Below are positions 24,118 through 43,636 of a stretch of DNA of 64,000 nucleotides, piece after piece. The stretch comes from Sulfurimonas gotlandica GD1. GTDB taxonomy: Bacteria; Campylobacterota; Campylobacteria; Campylobacterales; Sulfurimonadaceae. The position numbers and the translations under genes were made by a program. Location of the stretch: positions 1,736,001 through 1,800,000 of the forward strand of contig NZ_AFRZ01000001.1 in assembly GCF_000242915.1 (NCBI RefSeq), written 5' to 3'. The number at the start of each line of letters is the position of its first letter. Position 1 is the first letter of the stretch. The notes beneath the pieces were generated by a model. It was given only the letters and a program-made list of their open reading frames with translations. It was not told the origin of the DNA and did no database searches.

Positions 24118-24178
24118 TAAATTTCCTTGAATTAATTGCCCTATTGTATCTAAGAAGAGAAAACTTAAAAAAAATGTG

Positions 24179-24184
24179 TATAAT
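24179..24184 (+). promoter_or_regulatory. -10 element 6 nt before an ATG (predicted leaderless start)
   Basis: A perfect TATAAT preceded by TGTG. It ends 6 bases before the ATG at 24191, so transcription should start at or within a base of the initiation codon. No Shine-Dalgarno lies between them. Confidence 0.55.
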
Positions 24185-24190
24185 CTGCTT

Positions 24191-25546
24191 ATGAATCTAT
24201 ATGAACTACAAAATAAAACAATACTTCTATTTGGAAAGAGCCGCGCTTTTAGTGCTGATGAGTTCAATGCACAACTAAAATACCATAAAATTAATATTAC
24301 AAAAGAGTATAACGATGATGTTGTCTTAGTCGTAGACGGCAAGATGATGACTCCGTATGAGCAAAATGACAGCGATAAGTTATATGAAGAGAAAATTGAT
24401 GCTACTTTTGTTGATATTGATGTTCTTGAAAAAGAGTTGGCAAAGTACATAGATGCAGATACTCTTATGATGAGTCTAAAACTATCTCACGATAAAGATA
24501 GACTAAAAGATTTTTTAACAAACTCTATGATTAACGATGACCTCTACCTGCGACTTTTAAAGATGTACAAATGGGGTGGTGATAACTTTTTTGATAATGA
24601 TGATAACAGAGATATAAGTGCCGCTTTAATAGTAAGGTTCTATCAAAATATAGAAAGAAATCATAATGTTCAATATGCAGCACTGGGAATTATGCACCTA
24701 TCAACTCAATCAGATAATGAAAAAGTTTTAGAAGCGATTGCGTACTTAGAACCAATACAACAGACTATGCTTCAAGATACAAATATAGCAAACAACAAAA
24801 TTATATCAGCGATTGCAACAAACTACGCAACACCAAAAAATATTCTAAATATGTTAATAAAAAATGCAAACTCTTATATTAAAACGCTTATAGCTATGAG
24901 AGAAGATTGCGATGAAGAGATGCAACTAAAACTTGTTGAGAGTGAAGAAGATGATGTACTAAAAGCACTCTCATATAACCCTAATTTGTCAAAATCAATA
25001 GTAAAAAAGCTACTTTTTAACAATCCGCTTGCAAAGAATATGGCTAAAAATCTTCGTTTAAATAATGAACTGTTTGAAATATTTTTTAAAAATCATCCAA
25101 ATGAAGTTGCTAAAAATGAGTTTATATCAGTTGAGATGCAAAAGAAGTTAGTTGCTAATAGCACTCAAGAAGTAATGATGTCGCTTGCAACAAATGAAAA
25201 TATAGATAAAAAAGTAGTAGTTGATTTACTAGGTGAGGATTATGCTGAACTTAACCTTGCTCTTTATGAAAATAATGCCACACCACAAGAGAGTTTAGTG
25301 GAAGCTTATAACAGTGTTTTAAACCACTTTTCTCTTGCAAATAATGAGAATACTCCGAAGCATATTTTAGAACTACTGGCTGAAAGTGAGGATGCAAAAG
25401 TTCTCAAATCATTAGCAAAAAACCCAAGCACACCAATAGAGACTCTCTATCAACTTCAACTTGACTCACGTTTTGAAAGAATAGTAAAAGAGAATCCAAA
25501 TTTTGGTAAGCACATAATGAGTGAAAATATAGGGTGGGAAGTATAG
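24191..25546 (+). CDS. Helical-repeat protein of the MoxR/VWA cluster
   Basis: A 451-residue soluble protein with no catalytic motif that I recognise. From about residue 140 it is built of short helical repeats with recurrent 'N..TP..(I/L)L..L' phrasing (TNYATPKNILNMLIKN; SYNPNLSKSIVKKLL; LANNENTPKHILELLAES; AKNPSTPIETLYQL). This resembles the leucine-rich-repeat-variant/HEAT-like class and would form a binding scaffold. The first ~100 residues look like a separate alpha/beta domain. The ATG at 24191 is the sensible start, 6 bases behind a TATAAT. Its stop touches the ATG of the AAA ATPase, so the two are translationally coupled. Confidence 0.7.
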   Translation: MNLYELQNKTILLFGKSRAFSADEFNAQLKYHKINITKEYNDDVVLVVDGKMMTPYEQNDSDKLYEEKIDATFVDIDVLEKELAKYIDADTLMMSLKLSHDKDRLKDFLTNSMINDDLYLRLLKMYKWGGDNFFDNDDNRDISAALIVRFYQNIERNHNVQYAALGIMHLSTQSDNEKVLEAIAYLEPIQQTMLQDTNIANNKIISAIATNYATPKNILNMLIKNANSYIKTLIAMREDCDEEMQLKLVESEEDDVLKALSYNPNLSKSIVKKLLFNNPLAKNMAKNLRLNNELFEIFFKNHPNEVAKNEFISVEMQKKLVANSTQEVMMSLATNENIDKKVVVDLLGEDYAELNLALYENNATPQESLVEAYNSVLNHFSLANNENTPKHILELLAESEDAKVLKSLAKNPSTPIETLYQLQLDSRFERIVKENPNFGKHIMSENIGWEV

Positions 25547-26551: not shown

Positions 26552-27682
26552 ATGCAACTTCAGCAAAAAATCTCCCGTGCAAAAGCAAAACTACTAGTTG
26601 AGTATCCACTATTTGGAACTATCGCTTCAAAACTTCAACTCATAAAAAATGACGATATCCAAGCTTTTAAAAGTAACGGTACGACACTTGAGTACAGCAG
26701 TGACTTTTTTAACGAGATAACTATAAATGAGATGGAGTTTGTCTTCGCCAATGGTGCGATGCATGCATCTCTAGCTCATGAGTCACGTAAAAATGGACGA
26801 AGCGGTTGGTTGTGGCAACTCTCAACAGACTATGCCGTAAATGATATGCTTGTAGAAAATGGGATGGAAAGACCATATCAGGCACATTACTCTAAAAGAT
26901 TTCATGGGCTTTATGCAGAAGAGATATATGCTGAGCTAAAAGATGATATTTTACGTGATGAGTTAGAGTATGAATCGGATGATGTAGATGATGTTCAAAA
27001 AGATAAAAATGATTCACAGGACAATCAACAAGAGAGTGAAAAAGTTCAGCAAGATGATTTGGTTTCAGAGGAACTCTTTGAAGAGTTTGCAAAAGCAGTT
27101 TTAGAAGCTGAGGAAAAAAGGGGTGAGCTTCCGAGAAGTCTGGAGAGATTTTTTAAAATTGAGCAAAATGCAAAGATTGATTGGCGTGACGAACTTAGAG
27201 TGGCTTTAGAAAGATTTCATAAAGATGATTATACTCAGATGCCGCCAAACAAAAAGTTTTTGCATCTGGGATTTTACCTGCCATCTAGTGTCTCTCAAAG
27301 ATTTAAGTTAGTAGTTGCAGTTGATAGTTCAGGCTCTGTAGATGATGAGCTTCTCGGTGAGTTTTTGAGTGAGTTAAACTTTCTTATGAATACCATACCT
27401 TCATATGAAATAAACTTAATTGTTTGTGATGACAAGATACGTTCACACAGAGTTTTTTATAGTGGAGATATTTTAGAAGCTAGTGTCGAAGGTGGTGGTG
27501 CTACTGACTTTAGGCCCGTTTTTGAACTTATAAAAAATGAGTTAGAAGACACAAAATTGCTTTTGTACTTTAGCGATTTGGATGGTACTTTCCCAAAAAA
27601 TGCACCATCGTATGATGTAAAATGGATAGCTCCAAAAGATTTAGAGACTCCTTTTGGAGAAGTTATAGTTTTGGATGATTAA
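26552..27682 (+). CDS. VWA-like/DUF2201 protein, partner of the AAA ATPase
   Basis: A 376-residue protein with two parts. Residues about 1-130 carry the metallopeptidase-like DUF2201 N-terminal pattern (AMHASLAHESRKNG; GWLWQLSTDYAVNDMLVENGM), in which the usual HExxH is not intact, so activity is doubtful. An acidic Asp/Glu/Gln-rich linker (about 140-185) follows. Residues about 250-376 form a VWA-like domain with a MIDAS-type DSSGS near 257. The pairing with an upstream MoxR-type ATPase is typical. The last four bases overlap the convergent REC-REC-GGDEF gene. Confidence 0.8.
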   Translation: MQLQQKISRAKAKLLVEYPLFGTIASKLQLIKNDDIQAFKSNGTTLEYSSDFFNEITINEMEFVFANGAMHASLAHESRKNGRSGWLWQLSTDYAVNDMLVENGMERPYQAHYSKRFHGLYAEEIYAELKDDILRDELEYESDDVDDVQKDKNDSQDNQQESEKVQQDDLVSEELFEEFAKAVLEAEEKRGELPRSLERFFKIEQNAKIDWRDELRVALERFHKDDYTQMPPNKKFLHLGFYLPSSVSQRFKLVVAVDSSGSVDDELLGEFLSELNFLMNTIPSYEINLIVCDDKIRSHRVFYSGDILEASVEGGGATDFRPVFELIKNELEDTKLLLYFSDLDGTFPKNAPSYDVKWIAPKDLETPFGEVIVLDD

Positions 27683-28926
27683 CTAAACTCAATCCTATTT
27701 TTACCATTTTGTTTTGCACCATGAAGCATCATATCGGCTTGGTTGATTGTTTCTTCAAGAGTATCATCATCGTCATGAATAGATACACCGATTGATATAG
27801 TAAACTTGATGCTTTTATTAGCATCTATCGTAAAGTTGAATTTTTCAACTTCTTGTCTAAGTCTTTCAAGTATATCTGACGCGCTATATTTATTGATATT
27901 TTTAAGCACTACACAGAATTCTTCACCGCCAAATCTTGCGACTATATCTCTGTAGCTAGTGTTTGTTCTGAGTATCTCAGAGATGCTTGTTATAACTTTA
28001 TCTCCAATATCATGACCGTAAGTGTCATTTATATGTTTAAAGTTGTCAATATCTATCATTGAAACAGCAAATTGTTCACCACTTTCTTTTGTATCTTCAA
28101 TATACTCTTGCATGTTTTGGAAAAAGTAGCGACGGTTATAGAGACCTGTTAAAAAATCTCTATTTGCATGGTTTGTAATAAATTGGATATTTTCTAGTGC
28201 TTCAATTGAGTTATTTATACGACAAGAAAACTCTTCTTTTGAAAAAGGTTTTTTGATGTAGTCATTTGCACCATGTTTTAAAAACAGAGCATTTACCTCT
28301 TCATCGTTGTTTGAGGATATTGCGATGATACATAATTCAGATTTTTTATAATCTTTTCGAATCTCATTGGTAAGTTCTAGTCCATTCATAACGGGCATAT
28401 TGTAATCGGTTATAACCAAAGATATATCAGAATGAGCTGTCAGCATACCAACTGCTTCTTCACCATGGGCAACCGTTATAACATTGTAAAAAAGATTCTC
28501 TAGCATCTCTTTCATCATTTTTCTAAACACCATGGAGTCATCAACAACTAGAACTTTATGTTTTTGGTTTTTTTCTAGTCTTTGAATAGTTTGAATAATG
28601 TAGTTAATATCATCAACACCACCTTTGTTTACATAGTCAATAATATTTTTTTGAAGCATCTTCTTTCTAAACTCTTTGTCGATGTTTGCACTTAATACAA
28701 TGGCATGATTGCCTTTGCTTAGCACATAGTCAACAATCTCTCCATTTGGAGCATCTGGAAGATTGATATCGAGTAAGGTTATGAAATATTCATACTTTTT
28801 TAAAAATAGTTTTGCTTCTGAAAGTTTGTAAGCTACATCTACTTCATATTTTAAAGATAGTTCTATTTTTTTAGCCAAAATTTTTGCGAGTGTCTTATTG
28901 TCTTCGACGATTAATATTCTTTTCAT
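27679..28926 (-). CDS. Double-receiver GGDEF protein (REC-REC-GGDEF)
   Basis: A 415-residue cytoplasmic protein. Receiver 1 spans about 1-118 (ILIVEDNKTLAK; Asp in ITLLDINLPDAPNG). Receiver 2 spans about 122-245 (VLVVDDSMVFRKMM; Asp in LVITDYNMPVMNG, Lys in YIKKPFS). The GGDEF domain occupies about 255-415 with GGEEF, so cyclic di-GMP synthesis is expected. The position of the I-site reads SYRD, without the leading Arg. The ATG is right at receiver strand beta-1 and lies 6 bases from a TATAAT with no Shine-Dalgarno. It is not embedded in a kinase operon, so its phosphodonor is unknown. Confidence 0.9.
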   Translation of the reverse strand: MKRILIVEDNKTLAKILAKKIELSLKYEVDVAYKLSEAKLFLKKYEYFITLLDINLPDAPNGEIVDYVLSKGNHAIVLSANIDKEFRKKMLQKNIIDYVNKGGVDDINYIIQTIQRLEKNQKHKVLVVDDSMVFRKMMKEMLENLFYNVITVAHGEEAVGMLTAHSDISLVITDYNMPVMNGLELTNEIRKDYKKSELCIIAISSNNDEEVNALFLKHGANDYIKKPFSKEEFSCRINNSIEALENIQFITNHANRDFLTGLYNRRYFFQNMQEYIEDTKESGEQFAVSMIDIDNFKHINDTYGHDIGDKVITSISEILRTNTSYRDIVARFGGEEFCVVLKNINKYSASDILERLRQEVEKFNFTIDANKSIKFTISIGVSIHDDDDTLEETINQADMMLHGAKQNGKNRIEFS

Positions 28927-28932
28927 GCGGCT

Positions 28933-28938
28933 ATTATA
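28933..28938 (-). promoter_or_regulatory. -10 element 6 nt before the REC-REC-GGDEF ATG
   Basis: TATAAT on the minus strand, followed by AGCCGC and then ATG. It is one arm of an inverted repeat (ATTATACT...AGTATAAT) whose other arm serves the divergent helicase gene. Confidence 0.55.
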
Positions 28939-28947
28939 CTATTTTAG

Positions 28948-28953
28948 TATAAT
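28948..28953 (+). promoter_or_regulatory. -10 element 6 nt before the helicase ATG
   Basis: TATAAT followed by TTCTTT and the ATG at 28960. There is no Shine-Dalgarno. It mirrors the divergent -10 at 28933-28938. Confidence 0.55.
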
Positions 28954-28959
28954 TTCTTT

Positions 28960-30219
28960 ATGAATTATCTAGAAGAAATCACACAAAAATTGCTAACTAA
29001 ACAAAATATTTTTTTAACAGGTGGAGCAGGTGTCGGAAAAACAACAATAACAAGACAGGTTATAGAGTATTTTGAGAGTGAAGCCAAAAAAGTGGCAAAG
29101 CTTGCATCTACAGGTATGGCAGCCACACTTATAGATGGACAAACTCTACACAGCTTTTTAGACCTTGGCATCGCATCTGACATAAAAGAGTTAGAGATAA
29201 GCGGTAGATTAGAGATAAAAAAGAAGATAAAGAACCTTATATCGAGTATGCACTTAATAGTCATAGATGAGATTTCTATGGTTAGCGATACACTTTTAGA
29301 AATGATACAACTTAGACTTGAACAAGCTGAATTTTGCGGTACAGTTCTTGTTGTAGGAGATTTTTTACAGCTTCCACCTGTTGTAAGAGGAAGTGCAGAG
29401 GTTAAATTCGCCTTTGAATCAGCTGCGTGGGCTGAGTTTAATTTCTATAAGATAGAGCTTACACATATATATAGAACAGACGATAAAAAGTTTATAGAAC
29501 TTTTGGGAAGCGTAAGAGATGGTTTTATAGATGAAGACGTTCATAATCATTTGAACGAATATATAAAACCACTTCCAGAGGATTTGAGTGAGTTTACTTT
29601 TCTTTTTGGTAAAAATCACTCAGCATCTCTTCACAATAAAAGACAGTTAGCTTACATAGATAGTGAAGTCTTTGTAAAAGAAGCGCAAATAATAAAACAC
29701 GCTAAAAGTGTAGCAGATGCAGAGATTGAGCGTTTTATGAATGATTCTCGTATAGATAAAGAACTTGAACTAAAAATTGGAGCACCGGTTCTTTTTACTA
29801 GAAATTCTTGGAACTATTTTAATGGGGAACGTGGAGTTGTTGAAAATGTTGATACAAGTTTTGTTTATGTGCGTAAGTCAGATGCCAAAGTGGTAAAACT
29901 CGAAGCAGTTGCACAGAGTAAAGCTAAATGGAGTGAAAAAAGTATAAATGGAAAAAAAGAGATGGTAGAAGAGGCTCAATTGAGTGTTTATCAGTTTCCT
30001 ATAAAATTAGCTTTTGCGATAACTATTCATAAATCACAGGGAATGTCTATTGAAGATTTGATTATAGAGACAAACGAGATATTTGCACCGTCTCAGTTTT
30101 ATGTAGCACTTTCAAGAAGTTCAAATCCTAAAAGACTGAATCTTATAGCACCTGCTTGTCAGTGGCACCAAATTGTTTTTGTAAATAATAAAGCTTTGGG
30201 ATTTGTAAAAGATTCTTAG
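28960..30219 (+). CDS. PIF1/RecD-like superfamily 1 DNA helicase
   Basis: A 419-residue ATP-dependent helicase. Walker A is GGAGVGKTT (residues 21-29), motif Ia is ASTGMAATLIDGQTLHSFL, Walker B is LIVIDEISMV (about 100), motif III is VGDFLQLPPV, and the C-terminal SF1B motifs are FAITIHKSQGMS and FYVALSRSS. This is the PIF1 arrangement, 5'-3' polarity in characterised relatives. No accessory nuclease domain is fused. The start is fixed by Walker A lying only 20 residues in. A promoter element lies 6 bases upstream, so the message is probably leaderless. Confidence 0.85.
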   Translation: MNYLEEITQKLLTKQNIFLTGGAGVGKTTITRQVIEYFESEAKKVAKLASTGMAATLIDGQTLHSFLDLGIASDIKELEISGRLEIKKKIKNLISSMHLIVIDEISMVSDTLLEMIQLRLEQAEFCGTVLVVGDFLQLPPVVRGSAEVKFAFESAAWAEFNFYKIELTHIYRTDDKKFIELLGSVRDGFIDEDVHNHLNEYIKPLPEDLSEFTFLFGKNHSASLHNKRQLAYIDSEVFVKEAQIIKHAKSVADAEIERFMNDSRIDKELELKIGAPVLFTRNSWNYFNGERGVVENVDTSFVYVRKSDAKVVKLEAVAQSKAKWSEKSINGKKEMVEEAQLSVYQFPIKLAFAITIHKSQGMSIEDLIIETNEIFAPSQFYVALSRSSNPKRLNLIAPACQWHQIVFVNNKALGFVKDS

Positions 30220-39249: not shown

Positions 39250-41418
39250 CTAGGTATAGATGATACTACAGTTTTTTCCAGACTCTTTAGCTCTGTATAG
39301 AGCCTTGTCGGCTTTTTGTAAAATGTCTTTTACTTCTTTATCTTTATCTCCATCTAAAGTAGCAATACCGATGCTAACACTATACTTGATAATTTTATCT
39401 TCTATATGCACTTGGGAAGAATAAATTTTTTCACGAAATCTCTCTGCAAATAAGTAAGCACCTTCAGCATCTACTTCCGGAAGCATAATAGCAAACTCTT
39501 CTCCGCCAATACGAGCAATAACATCTATACTTCTGGCCATATTTAAACATGTTGAAGAAAAATGCTGAAGAACCTTATCTCCAAGTGCATGGCCATAGGT
39601 ATCGTTAAGTGACTTAAAATTGTCGATATCGAGCATTAAAAAGCTCAAATTCCTTCCATATCTAGTAGAGCGCTCTATCTCTTTGTTTGATATTTCACCA
39701 AACTTGCGACGATTTAGAACTCCTGTTAAAATATCAATGAATGCTATTTTTTCCAGTTTTAGATTTTGTTTTTGATGTCTTTGAATTTCTAATTCTTTTT
39801 TACTTAAGTAGAGTTGGGTATACATATCACCTTGTAAAAGTTTTTGCCTTGTTGTTTCATAAGCGCTGTACATTTTAGCCATTTCATCATTTGTACTTGT
39901 AGATTTGAGTTTAAGTGTTCTTCCTCCGCGTGCCAAATGCTTCATAGCATCTATCAATTGATAGATTTCATTTTTTGAACTCTGTTCAAACACGTATATT
40001 ATAATAACAGTTAAAACGAAAATAATACTAGAGTATAAAATCCACTTAAACAGCTTATCTGTAGCATCTTCTAGTTCATTTCTAATAAGCATGTTAATTT
40101 CATTTGTAAGTTTATCTTCAAATATTTTCATACCATTTATAAGTTCTGTCATAGATTCAAACCAAATTACAGAATTTACATCTTGAAAATTATGATTTTT
40201 TATACTATTTTCAATATTATAAATTTTATTGGAGATATTTGAGTTTATTATTGAATTTAGTTTATCTTTTTGAAGTGCTGTAGCGGTATGATTGAAATTG
40301 TTTAAAAGAGTGCTTTGCGAACCTGATAGTTGAATAAACTTGATATATTTTTCTTTATTTAATATCTCATTATTTTCTATAAGCATCGTTCCATATGCTC
40401 TTTTTAGACCTAAGGATTCTTTATACTGTAAGAGTGACGAGAGAGAAGATATGGATGAAGAAATTTCTTTATCAAGATTATAAATTGCCATTTTAGAGGT
40501 TATGCCTAAAATATTTCTGATTATTTCTGTGTAGAAATTTATTATGCTGCTCTGAGACACAGTATTGGCATCAATTTTTTTTCGAAAATTATTGAGACTA
40601 TCTATATCTTTTATAAATGTTTCTATAAAAGGACTAATAACTAAAAGTTTATCACCATGTACGCTCATAAGCTTATTATTAAATGACTTTATTGATTTAT
40701 CAACAATTATTCTTTGTTTGTTGAGAGTGTCTTTAAATTTACTTTGAGATGAAGATATGTATCCGGAGCTTAAACCTCTTTCAATTTGTAGTGAATGGGC
40801 TAATTCATTTATATTTGAGATAATATGAGTAAAACTTGATGTTTTTTTAATATCTTCATATCTGCTATAGTCATTAAAAAGAAGAATAAAGGCAAAAATC
40901 AGCATTCCTGTAAGTGGAATAACAGACAATAAAAATATTCGTTTTGTAAAACTAAATGCCTTAGTTGTTTTATTGATTATTCGCTTTAGTATTGATTGCT
41001 TGAGTACATGCCTCTTTGATAGAGCACATTTTTCAAAAGTATCTGTTGCAGGAATGTCTTCTTCGATAATATGATTAAATAGCCAATCTGTTAAAAAATA
41101 ACTGACCTCTTGTGCATTTTCAGTGTTTAGTGAATTTGTGAGCTTAGTTTTTAGCTCCGGAAATTTCTTGATTAAAGCGCTATGATGCTCTATCCGTTCT
41201 TTGATTTTTGGATAATTACATTTTTTTAAAAAAATCTCTTCTCTGTCAAAGTGTATTTTCGTATACTTTTCTAAATCATCAAAGATGCTGTCTATGACAG
41301 ATTCTGCTTCATCATCTCTTATTGCTACTGAGAGGGTGTTTATTATATTTAATATTTTTTTATGGTCGTCATCTAACTTTTTGACGCCAATGTTTAACCC
41401 ATCATTCCAATTTATCAT
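39250..41418 (-). CDS. Hemerythrin-NIT-GGDEF transmembrane diguanylate cyclase, copy 2
   Basis: A 722-residue protein of four parts. Residues about 1-135 are bacteriohemerythrin with metal-ligand His/Glu patterns (DDDHKKILNI; HFDREEIFLKK; HHSALIKKF; FNHIIEEDIPA). A first helix lies at about 160-182. A periplasmic nitrate/nitrite-sensing (NIT) region spans about 190-450 (LAHSLQIERGLSSGYIS; DKEISSSISSLSSLLQYKESLG). A second helix (about 455-480) and short HAMP-like linker lead to GGDEF (about 565-722) with GGEEF near 637, preceded by an RSID I-site. It should link cytoplasmic O2 or NO (hemerythrin iron) and periplasmic nitrogen oxides to cyclic di-GMP (inference). Its -10 lies 5 bases before the ATG. 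Confidence 0.85.
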   Translation of the reverse strand: MINWNDGLNIGVKKLDDDHKKILNIINTLSVAIRDDEAESVIDSIFDDLEKYTKIHFDREEIFLKKCNYPKIKERIEHHSALIKKFPELKTKLTNSLNTENAQEVSYFLTDWLFNHIIEEDIPATDTFEKCALSKRHVLKQSILKRIINKTTKAFSFTKRIFLLSVIPLTGMLIFAFILLFNDYSRYEDIKKTSSFTHIISNINELAHSLQIERGLSSGYISSSQSKFKDTLNKQRIIVDKSIKSFNNKLMSVHGDKLLVISPFIETFIKDIDSLNNFRKKIDANTVSQSSIINFYTEIIRNILGITSKMAIYNLDKEISSSISSLSSLLQYKESLGLKRAYGTMLIENNEILNKEKYIKFIQLSGSQSTLLNNFNHTATALQKDKLNSIINSNISNKIYNIENSIKNHNFQDVNSVIWFESMTELINGMKIFEDKLTNEINMLIRNELEDATDKLFKWILYSSIIFVLTVIIIYVFEQSSKNEIYQLIDAMKHLARGGRTLKLKSTSTNDEMAKMYSAYETTRQKLLQGDMYTQLYLSKKELEIQRHQKQNLKLEKIAFIDILTGVLNRRKFGEISNKEIERSTRYGRNLSFLMLDIDNFKSLNDTYGHALGDKVLQHFSSTCLNMARSIDVIARIGGEEFAIMLPEVDAEGAYLFAERFREKIYSSQVHIEDKIIKYSVSIGIATLDGDKDKEVKDILQKADKALYRAKESGKNCSIIYT

Positions 41419-41473: not shown

Positions 41474-43636
41474 TTATTTGTAGACAATTGTGCAGTTTCT
41501 TCCTGATTCTTTAGCTTTGTATAGAGCTTTGTCAGCCCTTTGTAGAATATCTTTCACATCTTTATCATTGTCTAAAATAGCTATACCGATACTTACACTG
41601 TATTTTATTATTTGCTCATCTACGGTTACTTCTGAAGTGTAAATTTCTTTACGAAATCTCTCAGCAAATATGTAAGCACCATCTATAGTAGTCTCTGGTA
41701 GCATGACTACAAACTCTTCACCGCCAACTCTTGCAACAATATCCAGGCTCCTAGCCATATCTAAACATATAGACGCAAAATGCTTAAGTATTTCATCTCC
41801 TGCAGCATGGCCGTAGGTGTCATTTATGCTTTTAAAGTGGTCAATATCAAGCATTAAAAAGCTTAAATCACTATTGTAACGATTTGAGCGCTCTAACTCT
41901 TGCATTGATAATTCTTCAAATTTACGACGATTTACTGCTCCGGTTAAAGGATCAATAAATGCCATCACTTCAAGTTTTACATTCTCTCTTTGATGGCTTT
42001 GAATCTCCATTTCTTTTTTATTTAAATAGAGTTGTGTATATATATCACCTTTGAGAAGTTTCTGTCTTGTTGTTTCATACGCATCGTACATATATGCCAG
42101 TTCATCTCTTTTTACATGTATAGGAGAGAGTCTAAGAGATCTTCCTCCAGTTGCTAAATCTTTCATAGCATTTGTTAGTTGATAAATTTGAAATTTTGTA
42201 CTTTTTTTGAATGTATATAAAATTGAAAGGGTAATAACCAAAATAGCTGTTGTGAATGAAAGCCATAGAAGAAGATTCCTGATAGTATCATTAATTCTTT
42301 TTTCTATTAAAATGTTTATATCTGAAAGAAGTTCATCTTCAAAGAGTTTGATTTTGTTTATATATGTAGTCATTGACTTAAACCAAATCTCTGTGTCTAA
42401 ATTTTTAAAGTCATGAATCTCAATGCTATCTTCATATAATCTTACCTGTTTGGCAATATTTGAATCTCTTAACATCTTATTTGTATGTTTTTGCGATCCA
42501 CTAGCTGTATGTGCAAAGGTGCTTAAAAAAGCTTTTTGCGTACCGATGAGTCTTGTGAAAGTTATATACTCTTTTAACGTTGCGTCCTTTTGTTCAATTA
42601 TCATTGTTCCAAAAGCCCTCTCTTGCCCAAGAGACTCTTTTAAGTGCTGAATAGATGATAATGTGGCAATTGAAGAAGAAACTTCTCTATCAAGATTTAA
42701 GAATGCCACTTTTGGAGTAATGCTTAGAATATTTCCAATCATACTTGTATATTTGTCTATAGTCCTAGCTTGAGAAATTACTTTACCATCAATATCTTTT
42801 CGAAGTTTATTAATAGATGAGATATCAGTTTTAAAAGTATTTATATATGGTTGAATCTCATAGATGTTTTTTATCTCAGTAGTTTTTATCTTTTCAAGAA
42901 ACTCATTTGTTGCCATATCAACAATAGTTCTTTGAACATTTAAAGTGTCTTTGAACTTATCTTGTGCTGATGTTAGAAAACCACTACTTAAACCTCTTTC
43001 TATTTGAATTGTATGAACTAACTCATCTATATTTGAGATGATATTAGTAATAGCAGAAGTTTTTCTCATATCTTCATATTTATTATAATTGTTAAGTAAA
43101 ATAATTGTTCCAAAAAGCAGCATTCCTATTAATGGAGTTAATGCTGATAAAAGTATTCTTCTTGTGAAGCTGAATTTATTAGTAGTTTTTGTGATGATTT
43201 TTGTTAGAAAATTGCTTTTTTCCTTTTTTTCCTTAGTTAGACCACATTTCTCAAACATAGTTATAGCAGGAATATCTTCTTCAATAATATGGTTAAATAA
43301 CCAGTCTGTCAAGAAAAAACTTATTTCTTCTGCATTATAAGGCTCTTTAGAGAGAAGAAATTTTGCTTTTAGATCAGGAATCTTTTTGCTAAATATGAGA
43401 TGTTGTTTTATATGTTCATCTAGTTTTTTACACCCACATTTTTTAAGTAGCTCTTCTTCTCTATGAAAATGATCTGTTGCATAGTTTTGTAACTCATCAA
43501 AGATGCTTTCTATAAATTTTTTAGCTTCATCATTACTTATTGCATGTGAGAGTTCGTTAATAATATCTAAAAGTTTTTTATGGTCATCGTCAAGGGCTTT
43601 TATCCCAAGGCTTAGACCTTCATTCCATTCTATCAT
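41474..43636 (-). CDS. Hemerythrin-NIT-GGDEF transmembrane diguanylate cyclase, copy 1
   Basis: A 720-residue tandem paralogue of the gene at 39250, with the same order: hemerythrin (DDDHKKLLDI; HFHREEELLKKCGC; FNHIIEEDIPA), helix, NIT-like periplasmic region (VHTIQIERGLSSGFLT; LDREVSSSIATLSSIQHLKESLGQ), helix, GGDEF. GGEEF lies near 637 with an RSLD I-site before it. The two copies are most alike at both ends and least alike in the periplasmic middle, suggesting altered ligand response. A TAAAAT lies 6 bases before the ATG and no Shine-Dalgarno is present. Confidence 0.85.
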   Translation of the reverse strand: MIEWNEGLSLGIKALDDDHKKLLDIINELSHAISNDEAKKFIESIFDELQNYATDHFHREEELLKKCGCKKLDEHIKQHLIFSKKIPDLKAKFLLSKEPYNAEEISFFLTDWLFNHIIEEDIPAITMFEKCGLTKEKKEKSNFLTKIITKTTNKFSFTRRILLSALTPLIGMLLFGTIILLNNYNKYEDMRKTSAITNIISNIDELVHTIQIERGLSSGFLTSAQDKFKDTLNVQRTIVDMATNEFLEKIKTTEIKNIYEIQPYINTFKTDISSINKLRKDIDGKVISQARTIDKYTSMIGNILSITPKVAFLNLDREVSSSIATLSSIQHLKESLGQERAFGTMIIEQKDATLKEYITFTRLIGTQKAFLSTFAHTASGSQKHTNKMLRDSNIAKQVRLYEDSIEIHDFKNLDTEIWFKSMTTYINKIKLFEDELLSDINILIEKRINDTIRNLLLWLSFTTAILVITLSILYTFKKSTKFQIYQLTNAMKDLATGGRSLRLSPIHVKRDELAYMYDAYETTRQKLLKGDIYTQLYLNKKEMEIQSHQRENVKLEVMAFIDPLTGAVNRRKFEELSMQELERSNRYNSDLSFLMLDIDHFKSINDTYGHAAGDEILKHFASICLDMARSLDIVARVGGEEFVVMLPETTIDGAYIFAERFRKEIYTSEVTVDEQIIKYSVSIGIAILDNDKDVKDILQRADKALYKAKESGRNCTIVYK

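Follow-up and report, generated by a model that had tools for sequence, protein, structure and literature searches.

Leaderless messenger RNAs have been described in the Campylobacterota. In Campylobacter jejuni, 19 5′ untranslated regions (5′UTRs) are shorter than 10 nt; these messages have no Shine-Dalgarno sequence and have TAnAaT upstream, and 12 of the 19 begin exactly at the ATG (PMC3847290). A predictor of the form gnTAnaAT-N5-9-ATG was applied to 42 Epsilonproteobacteria in the same report, which predicts leaderless messages for 23 genes. A search for leaderless messages in Sulfurimonas returned one further paper, PMC3475470, which is on Bacillus. A periodic A/T pattern stands in for the −35 element upstream of an extended −10 in C. 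jejuni (PMC3656092). Bacterial bidirectional promoters have starts 7–25 bp apart, mostly 18 bp with interlocked −10 elements (PMC10268837), and divergent overlapping promoters are found between regulators and their targets, such as acrAB/acrR (PMC12825309). Here, we analyzed a 33-bp intergenic region of Sulfurimonas gotlandica GD1 between a REC-REC-GGDEF gene and a divergent PIF1-like helicase gene. It lies in a 64,000-nucleotide stretch of contig NZ_AFRZ01000001.1 (positions 1,736,001 to 1,800,000; hereafter the window, in whose positions coordinates are given), in a genome of 2.95 Mb on a single contig. Comparison with relatives indicates that the 33-bp region is very probably a minimal divergent promoter from which both messages are leaderless.

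The GGDEF/helicase locus resembles the leaderless messages of C. jejuni and Helicobacter pylori in the TAnaAT-type box 5–9 nt before the ATG, the lack of a Shine-Dalgarno sequence, the predicted start at the first nucleotide of the codon and the gene-by-gene switching between leaderless and leadered states among relatives (PMC3847290). It differs in that those cases are single genes (23 genes, followed across 42 genomes). Neither "divergent" nor "bidirectional" occurs in the main text of that report, and its available text, tables aside, contains no divergent pair in which both genes are leaderless and share one short intergenic region. With bidirectional promoters (PMC10268837, PMC12825309) the locus has in common a near-palindromic −10 region and, as predicted, two divergent starts and use by polymerase in either orientation. 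In contrast to them, its −10 elements are separated by 9 bp rather than interlocked, its predicted starts are 34 bp apart (25–35 bp at compact loci), outside the published range of 7–25 bp, and both products are predicted to be leaderless. Relatives with a 24-bp intergenic gap have predicted starts 25 bp apart, at the upper edge of that range, and the locus may work like a bidirectional promoter though it lies outside the published definition. It shares compactness and a predicted overlap of polymerase footprints with the regulator/target promoters (PMC12825309) and differs from them in that no regulator site was recognized and the 33-bp gap has no room for a 5′UTR. A literature search covering titles and the beginnings of abstracts, with most subscription papers outside its coverage, returned no double-leaderless divergent pair. 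The parts are of known kinds, and the recurrent double-leaderless divergent layout looks new as far as the literature was searched.

Results

Two −10 elements between the GGDEF and helicase genes

The intergenic sequence at 28927–28959 reads GCGGCT-ATTATACTA-TTT-TAGTATAAT-TTCTTT between the two divergent ATGs and contains, with the flanking genes, the following features.

27679–28926, minus strand: REC-REC-GGDEF gene, 415 aa, putative diguanylate cyclase response regulator; ATG at 28926–28924; predicted leaderless; Pfam matches to Response_reg in two stretches and to GGDEF
28960–30219, plus strand: PIF1-like/AAA helicase gene, 419 aa; ATG at 28960–28962; predicted leaderless; Pfam matches to PIF1, AAA_30 and AAA_19; start kept in relatives
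28933–28953, no strand: 21-bp palindromic core, with 9-bp arms at 28933–28941 and 28945–28953 and centre TTT; identical in loci L001–L003
28933–28938, minus strand: −10 hexamer TATAAT of the GGDEF gene, 6 nt to the ATG at 28926
28948–28953, plus strand: −10 hexamer TATAAT of the helicase gene, 6 nt to the ATG at 28960
28927–28932, minus strand: 6-nt discriminator of the GGDEF promoter, which leaves no space for a Shine-Dalgarno sequence in the message
28954–28959, plus strand: 6-nt discriminator of the helicase promoter
28926, minus strand: predicted GGDEF-gene transcription start, at the A of its ATG, from the 6-nt discriminator
28960, plus strand: predicted helicase-gene transcription start, at the A of its ATG, from the 6-nt discriminator
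28945–28947, plus strand: in-frame TAG that shuts the helicase frame upstream, 15 nt before the ATG
28939–28941, minus strand: in-frame TAG that shuts the GGDEF frame upstream, 15 nt before the ATG

A TATAAT on each strand, 6 nt before each divergent ATG, had been reported in the initial annotation of this DNA, and both were found. The inverted repeat described there is also present, with arms of 9 bp around a 3-bp centre instead of the 8-bp arms given. In loci L010 and L020 one arm of this core is altered. Both strands read TAG TAT AAT N6 ATG, and no ATG, GTG or TTG lies between the TAG and the ATG; therefore, no longer N terminus is possible for either protein, and the longer conserved N terminus that the annotation had named as a possible refutation is excluded by an in-frame TAG on both sides. 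A start downstream of either ATG is unlikely, judged by eye: the GGDEF protein enters its first REC domain at about residue 3, and the motif we take to be the helicase Walker A lies at about residue 21. No Shine-Dalgarno sequence was seen in the intergenic sequence of the window, and the window gave no Rfam match to a structured RNA at gathering score. Among 300,000 mononucleotide shuffles of the 33 bp, none had both exact boxes at 6 nt; among 100,000 dinucleotide shuffles, 4 did.

Conservation of the −10-to-ATG distance in the genus

The helicase was searched for in 100 genomes of the genus; 97 gave any match and 84 loci were read. The matches left out were mostly fragments without the N terminus or distant paralogues, plus G059 and G096, where the N terminus falls at a contig end. 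A −10 hexamer 5–7 nt before the helicase ATG was scored by a strict rule (at least 5 of 6 positions, with A2 and T6) or a loose rule (TAnnnT, at least 4 of 6), and was present in 62 and 81 of the 84 loci, respectively. The profile over the distance d between hexamer and ATG peaks at d = 5 (21 loci) and d = 6 (39); each distance between 0 and 4 has 2 or fewer, and lesser peaks lie at d = 10 (17), 13 (12) and 21 (20). A Shine-Dalgarno-like string precedes the helicase in 3 of the 84 loci.

A divergent GGDEF gene with a usable start accompanies the helicase in 68 of the 84 loci; among the remaining 16 are loci truncated at a contig end (e.g., L045). On this side, TATAAT, TAAAAT or TAGAAT was counted at 5–7 nt and occurs in 17 of the 68 loci, window included, none of which has a Shine-Dalgarno sequence (0/17). 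Of the 51 loci without such a box, 44 have a Shine-Dalgarno sequence. An exact TATAAT lies on the GGDEF side at 6 nt in L001, L002, L003 and L020 and at 7 nt in L010. These counts bear on the possibility that only the helicase is leaderless and that a further promoter, within the helicase gene, also drives the GGDEF gene and gives it a longer leader. That arrangement would suit the 51 relatives and their 44 Shine-Dalgarno sequences, but the window falls in the class with none before the GGDEF ATG and has, like the loci just listed, an exact TATAAT at 6–7 nt; we consider this arrangement improbable here.

Fifteen of the 68 GGDEF/helicase loci are double-leaderless by these rules, with intergenic lengths of 24, 25, 33, 34, 56 or 57 bp. 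When restricted to N-free sequences the count is 14 of 67, compared with a shuffle mean of 0.43 and maximum of 3 (200 runs). The box-to-box gap is 1 bp in L004, L005, L024, L041, L050 and L087, 9 bp in the window, L002, L003, L010 and L020, and 32–33 bp in the other double-leaderless loci, and each box keeps 5–7 nt to its own ATG despite this variation. The same comparison speaks to whether the repeat could be an operator, bound by a dimeric regulator that represses both genes, with the TATAAT sequences incidental. Perfect 9-bp arms around a 3-bp centre, unchanged in L001–L003, would be consistent with such a site. However, the spacing of the arms differs between clades, whereas the box-to-ATG distance is conserved, the arms coincide with −10 elements, and the thioredoxin/AEC pair described below has the same layout with gaps of 1, 3, 5 and 10 bp. 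An operator is very improbable, and the symmetry probably reflects two good −10 boxes facing apart.

Among the 51 loci that fail the leaderless rule on the GGDEF side, 16 have ATTATA 0–12 bp before the helicase box, which suggests that a leader on that side may coexist with the back-to-back core. In L009, L011, L039, L052 and L063 no GGDEF gene was found beside the helicase in the adjoining stretch; there the helicase is preceded by the end of a DUF2201/VWA gene (by eye; PFGEV-, PFGDV- or PFGEL-like), and the helicase TATAAT still lies at 6 nt. On a quick tree with many open forks, the GGDEF state changes at least five times, in a direction that the tree does not make readable.

A second divergent pair with the same layout

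An exact pattern search of the window's own genome gave one other exact double case, at chromosome positions 953508–953538. It reads CAT GGAGAG ATTATA T TATAAT ACCACT ATG and lies between a thioredoxin-like gene and an AEC-type permease gene (Pfam Thioredoxin and Mem_trans). The genome has at least two exact loci of the predicted double-leaderless type, GGDEF/helicase and thioredoxin/AEC. The thioredoxin/AEC sample comprised 76 stretches, 74 with a usable start and 72 after the duplicates L191 and L200 were dropped; G097 enters twice, with two copies, and the second G057 copy was left out. In 59 of the 72 loci the thioredoxin gene is divergent within 100 bp.

The AEC permease has a −10 hexamer at 5–7 nt in 67 of the 72 loci and a Shine-Dalgarno sequence in none of them (0/72). 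The intergenic region is 24–34 bp long in 35 of the 59 divergent pairs, and 33 of these 35 are double-leaderless by rule, with box-to-box gaps of 1, 3, 5 and 10 bp in 15, 10, 5 and 3 loci, respectively; shuffles of the same sequences gave a mean of 0.23 and a maximum of 2. On the thioredoxin side, none of the 35 short gaps has a Shine-Dalgarno sequence (0/35), and 23 of the 24 long gaps have one. The two-box core is retained in all 24 long-gap loci, where a leader separates it from the thioredoxin start. The window's genome and G090, whose permeases are 94–95% identical, have box-to-box gaps of 1 and 10 bp, respectively, with both box-to-ATG distances at 6. At least four changes of the thioredoxin state are needed on a quick tree, again with many open forks and no readable direction.

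Two side observations concern this pair. The 22-bp core ATTATACACTATTTGCTATAAT, or a near copy, stands at leaderless and Shine-Dalgarno-leadered thioredoxin genes alike (L236, L248 and L260 versus L276, L288 and others), and leaders therefore seem to have been inserted or removed beside an unchanged promoter core. The permease frame is shortened to 45 codons in L200:1968 and 270 codons in L193:1989, compared with 302, which may be assembly error or decay.

The hexamer relative to gene starts in the same genome

A sample of 464 kb from the window's genome (the window plus 20 stretches) was reduced to mechanically called open reading frames (ORFs) of at least 100 aa, which gave 349 ATG starts. 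Exact TATAAT occurs 3, 7 and 4 times at d = 5, 6 and 7; off this peak the counts are 0, 1, 0, 0 and 0 at d = 0–4, 1 at d = 8 and 0 at each d from 9 to 13, and a second broad hump lies at about 20–35 nt. The 14 of 349 starts with the hexamer at d = 5–7, which appear leaderless under this rule, compare with 1.2 expected from d = 0–4 and 9–18 (Poisson, 5e-11), and they include the GGDEF and helicase genes. Exact TATAAT-N6-ATG has three matches in the window: the GGDEF start, the helicase start and the ATG at 24191. The non-random element is the position of the motif relative to gene starts, not the bare string.

One could suppose that one or both boxes are accidents of composition and that the real starts lie inside the neighbouring gene. 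The gap is indeed AT-rich (25 of 33 bases), and the window shows no enrichment of the raw motif. Against this stand the shuffle counts, the conservation across the loci of the genus, the exclusion of Shine-Dalgarno sequences and the replication at thioredoxin/AEC, and a chance origin is extremely improbable.

Spread of the layout

Across the 100 genomes of the genus, the exact 1-bp-gap and 3-bp-gap patterns occur at 5 and 14 places, with none in the reversed control. The one of these 19 places that is not a thioredoxin/AEC pair (L308) has an HI0933-like flavoprotein gene (by eye). The exact layout seen in the window, ATTATACT-N5-AGTATAAT flanked on either side by 6 nt and an ATG, is present in 3 of the 100 genomes (control, 0). 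L198, with an HI0933-like gene by eye, and L199 are two more double cases. Order-wide, the 1-bp-gap pattern with TANAAT boxes, the only gap searched at this scale, matched 3 of 199 genomes and its reversed control 2 of 199; the three matches all belong to the window's family and two to its genus, the window's own genome included. Among helicase relatives from the same family or order (L211–L234), an exact TATAAT 5–7 nt before the residue-1 ATG was seen by eye in 5 of 24 (L215, L218, L223, L224 and L232) and not in the other 19.

Weighing the leaderless reading

Leaderless transcription of both genes, as the initial annotation proposed, is strongly supported by these sequence comparisons because the −10-to-ATG distance is conserved, the exclusion of Shine-Dalgarno sequences is near-perfect and a second locus has the same layout.

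Several observations weigh against this reading. Neither promoter has a recognizable −35 box, the best matches being 2/6 and 3/6; this absence fits the phylum and leaves the −10 elements as the sole sequence evidence for promoters. TATAAT-N6-ATG with up to one mismatch occurs 28 times in the window, compared with 49.6 expected from shuffles, and is not enriched; genome-wide, TATAAT-N0-20-ATG is not over-represented (1530, versus 1548 for the reversed control). At the helicase, L017, L076 and L078 have no box under the strict or the loose rule, and at the permease no hexamer of at least 5/6 was found in L262 and L294. L086 has a 33-bp gap and yet no −10 hexamer on the GGDEF side. By the sequence rule, double leaderlessness is not essential: 51 of 68 relatives fail it on the GGDEF side. 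The exact layouts are also concentrated, with the thioredoxin/AEC pair making up 18 of the 19 places with an exact gap of 1 or 3 bp in the 100 genomes. Lastly, predictions of this kind can fail: when about 20 of them in C. jejuni were examined by ribosome profiling, six gained support, one was contradicted and 14 stayed unclear (PMC11955535).

Proposed mechanism and possible promoter coupling

Transcription by sigma-70 polymerase begins some 7 nt downstream from the −10 box, and the footprint of the enzyme extends from about −55 to +20. The proposed promoter has two −10 elements of this type, facing away from each other and each separated by 6 nt from an ATG. Polymerase in either orientation would start on the A of the start codon, at 28960 for the helicase message and at 28926 for the GGDEF message, and both leaderless messages would be translated by initiation on the 5′ ATG. 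The annotation took the boxes to overlap and to be mutually exclusive. The hexamers are 9 bp apart and do not overlap; the polymerase footprints would, which makes joint occupancy unlikely. Two holoenzymes should not fit, and the orientations would exclude each other at any instant.

Exclusion of polymerases need not mean regulation. It would do so if the pair were a coupled switch, in which the promoters compete for polymerase, GGDEF and helicase expression is anticorrelated and the coupling is selected. The expected steric exclusion of two holoenzymes agrees with such a switch, as do the presence of a GGDEF gene as divergent neighbour in 68 of 84 loci and the retention of back-to-back boxes despite a leader in 16 of 51 GGDEF/helicase loci and in 24 of 24 long thioredoxin/AEC loci. 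However, the box-to-box gap varies (1, 9, 32 or 33 bp at GGDEF/helicase; 1, 3, 5 or 10 bp at thioredoxin/AEC), and in five relatives with no GGDEF gene found in the stretch adjoining the helicase the TATAAT still lies at 6 nt. In Escherichia coli, bidirectional promoters do compete after activation of one direction, which speaks for a switch; at basal activity no competition was seen, the five that were tested being too weak for it (PMC12825309), which speaks against one. Because the gap varies and five relatives lack a GGDEF gene beside the helicase, coupling is disfavoured as a selected function; the two-box core is kept where one gene has a leader, and therefore the idea retains some plausibility. 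On balance we regard a coupled switch as unlikely. The linked expression of the GGDEF and helicase genes that the annotation proposed is unproven and somewhat disfavoured, with core retention in its favour, and the outputs of the two promoters would probably be close to independent at low activity.

Neighbouring genes and other predicted leaderless starts

The third exact TATAAT-N6-ATG match in the window falls in the ORF at 24176–25546 (plus strand). The longest version of that ORF opens with GTG at 24176, and translation probably starts 5 codons later, at the ATG at 24191. The protein from this ATG has 451 aa and no Pfam family at E 0.001, and its message may be leaderless; the gene lies upstream of an AAA gene (25547) and a DUF2201/VWA gene (26552). 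On the opposite strand, an NhaA-like gene (by eye) probably starts at about 24117, not at the longest-ORF position 24450. The DUF2201/VWA gene (26552–27682, plus strand) overlaps the REC-REC-GGDEF gene (27679–28926, minus strand) tail to tail by 4 bases, 27679–27682. Two tandem paralogues on the minus strand (39250–41418 and 41474–43636) encode proteins of about 720 aa with a hemerythrin-like N terminus and a GGDEF C terminus (by eye); the −10-like hexamers TATAAT and TAAAAT lie 5–6 nt before their ATGs, and both look leaderless. Elsewhere in the genome, predicted leaderless genes include UvrB (L100:11375, minus strand), an HI0933-like flavoprotein (L100:2648, plus strand), a FUR-family regulator (L093:14973, plus strand) and a single-domain response regulator (L088:12823, minus strand).

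Discussion

We tentatively propose, with somewhat less than even confidence, that minimal divergent promoters of the double-leaderless kind, 24–34 bp from ATG to ATG, form a class in Sulfurimonas. In this class the orientation of polymerase on one small core would directly decide which protein is made, the coding sequences would be under mutual promoter constraint and the core would be modular. If this is true, the upstream promoter DNA of each gene would be the first codons of the other gene. Modularity would mean that the box-to-ATG distance is fixed, the box-to-box gap is variable and a one-sided Shine-Dalgarno leader is optional beside a retained two-box core.

The layout offers a testable rule, based on sequence only, for joint transcription and translation starts in Sulfurimonas. 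The loci also form a natural series (gaps of 1, 3, 5, 9 and 10 bp, with or without a leader) for probing interference between back-to-back promoters, in which the thioredoxin/AEC pairs of the window's genome and G090, with gaps of 1 and 10 bp, are a ready natural experiment. The same series bears on how genes pass between leaderless and leadered states.

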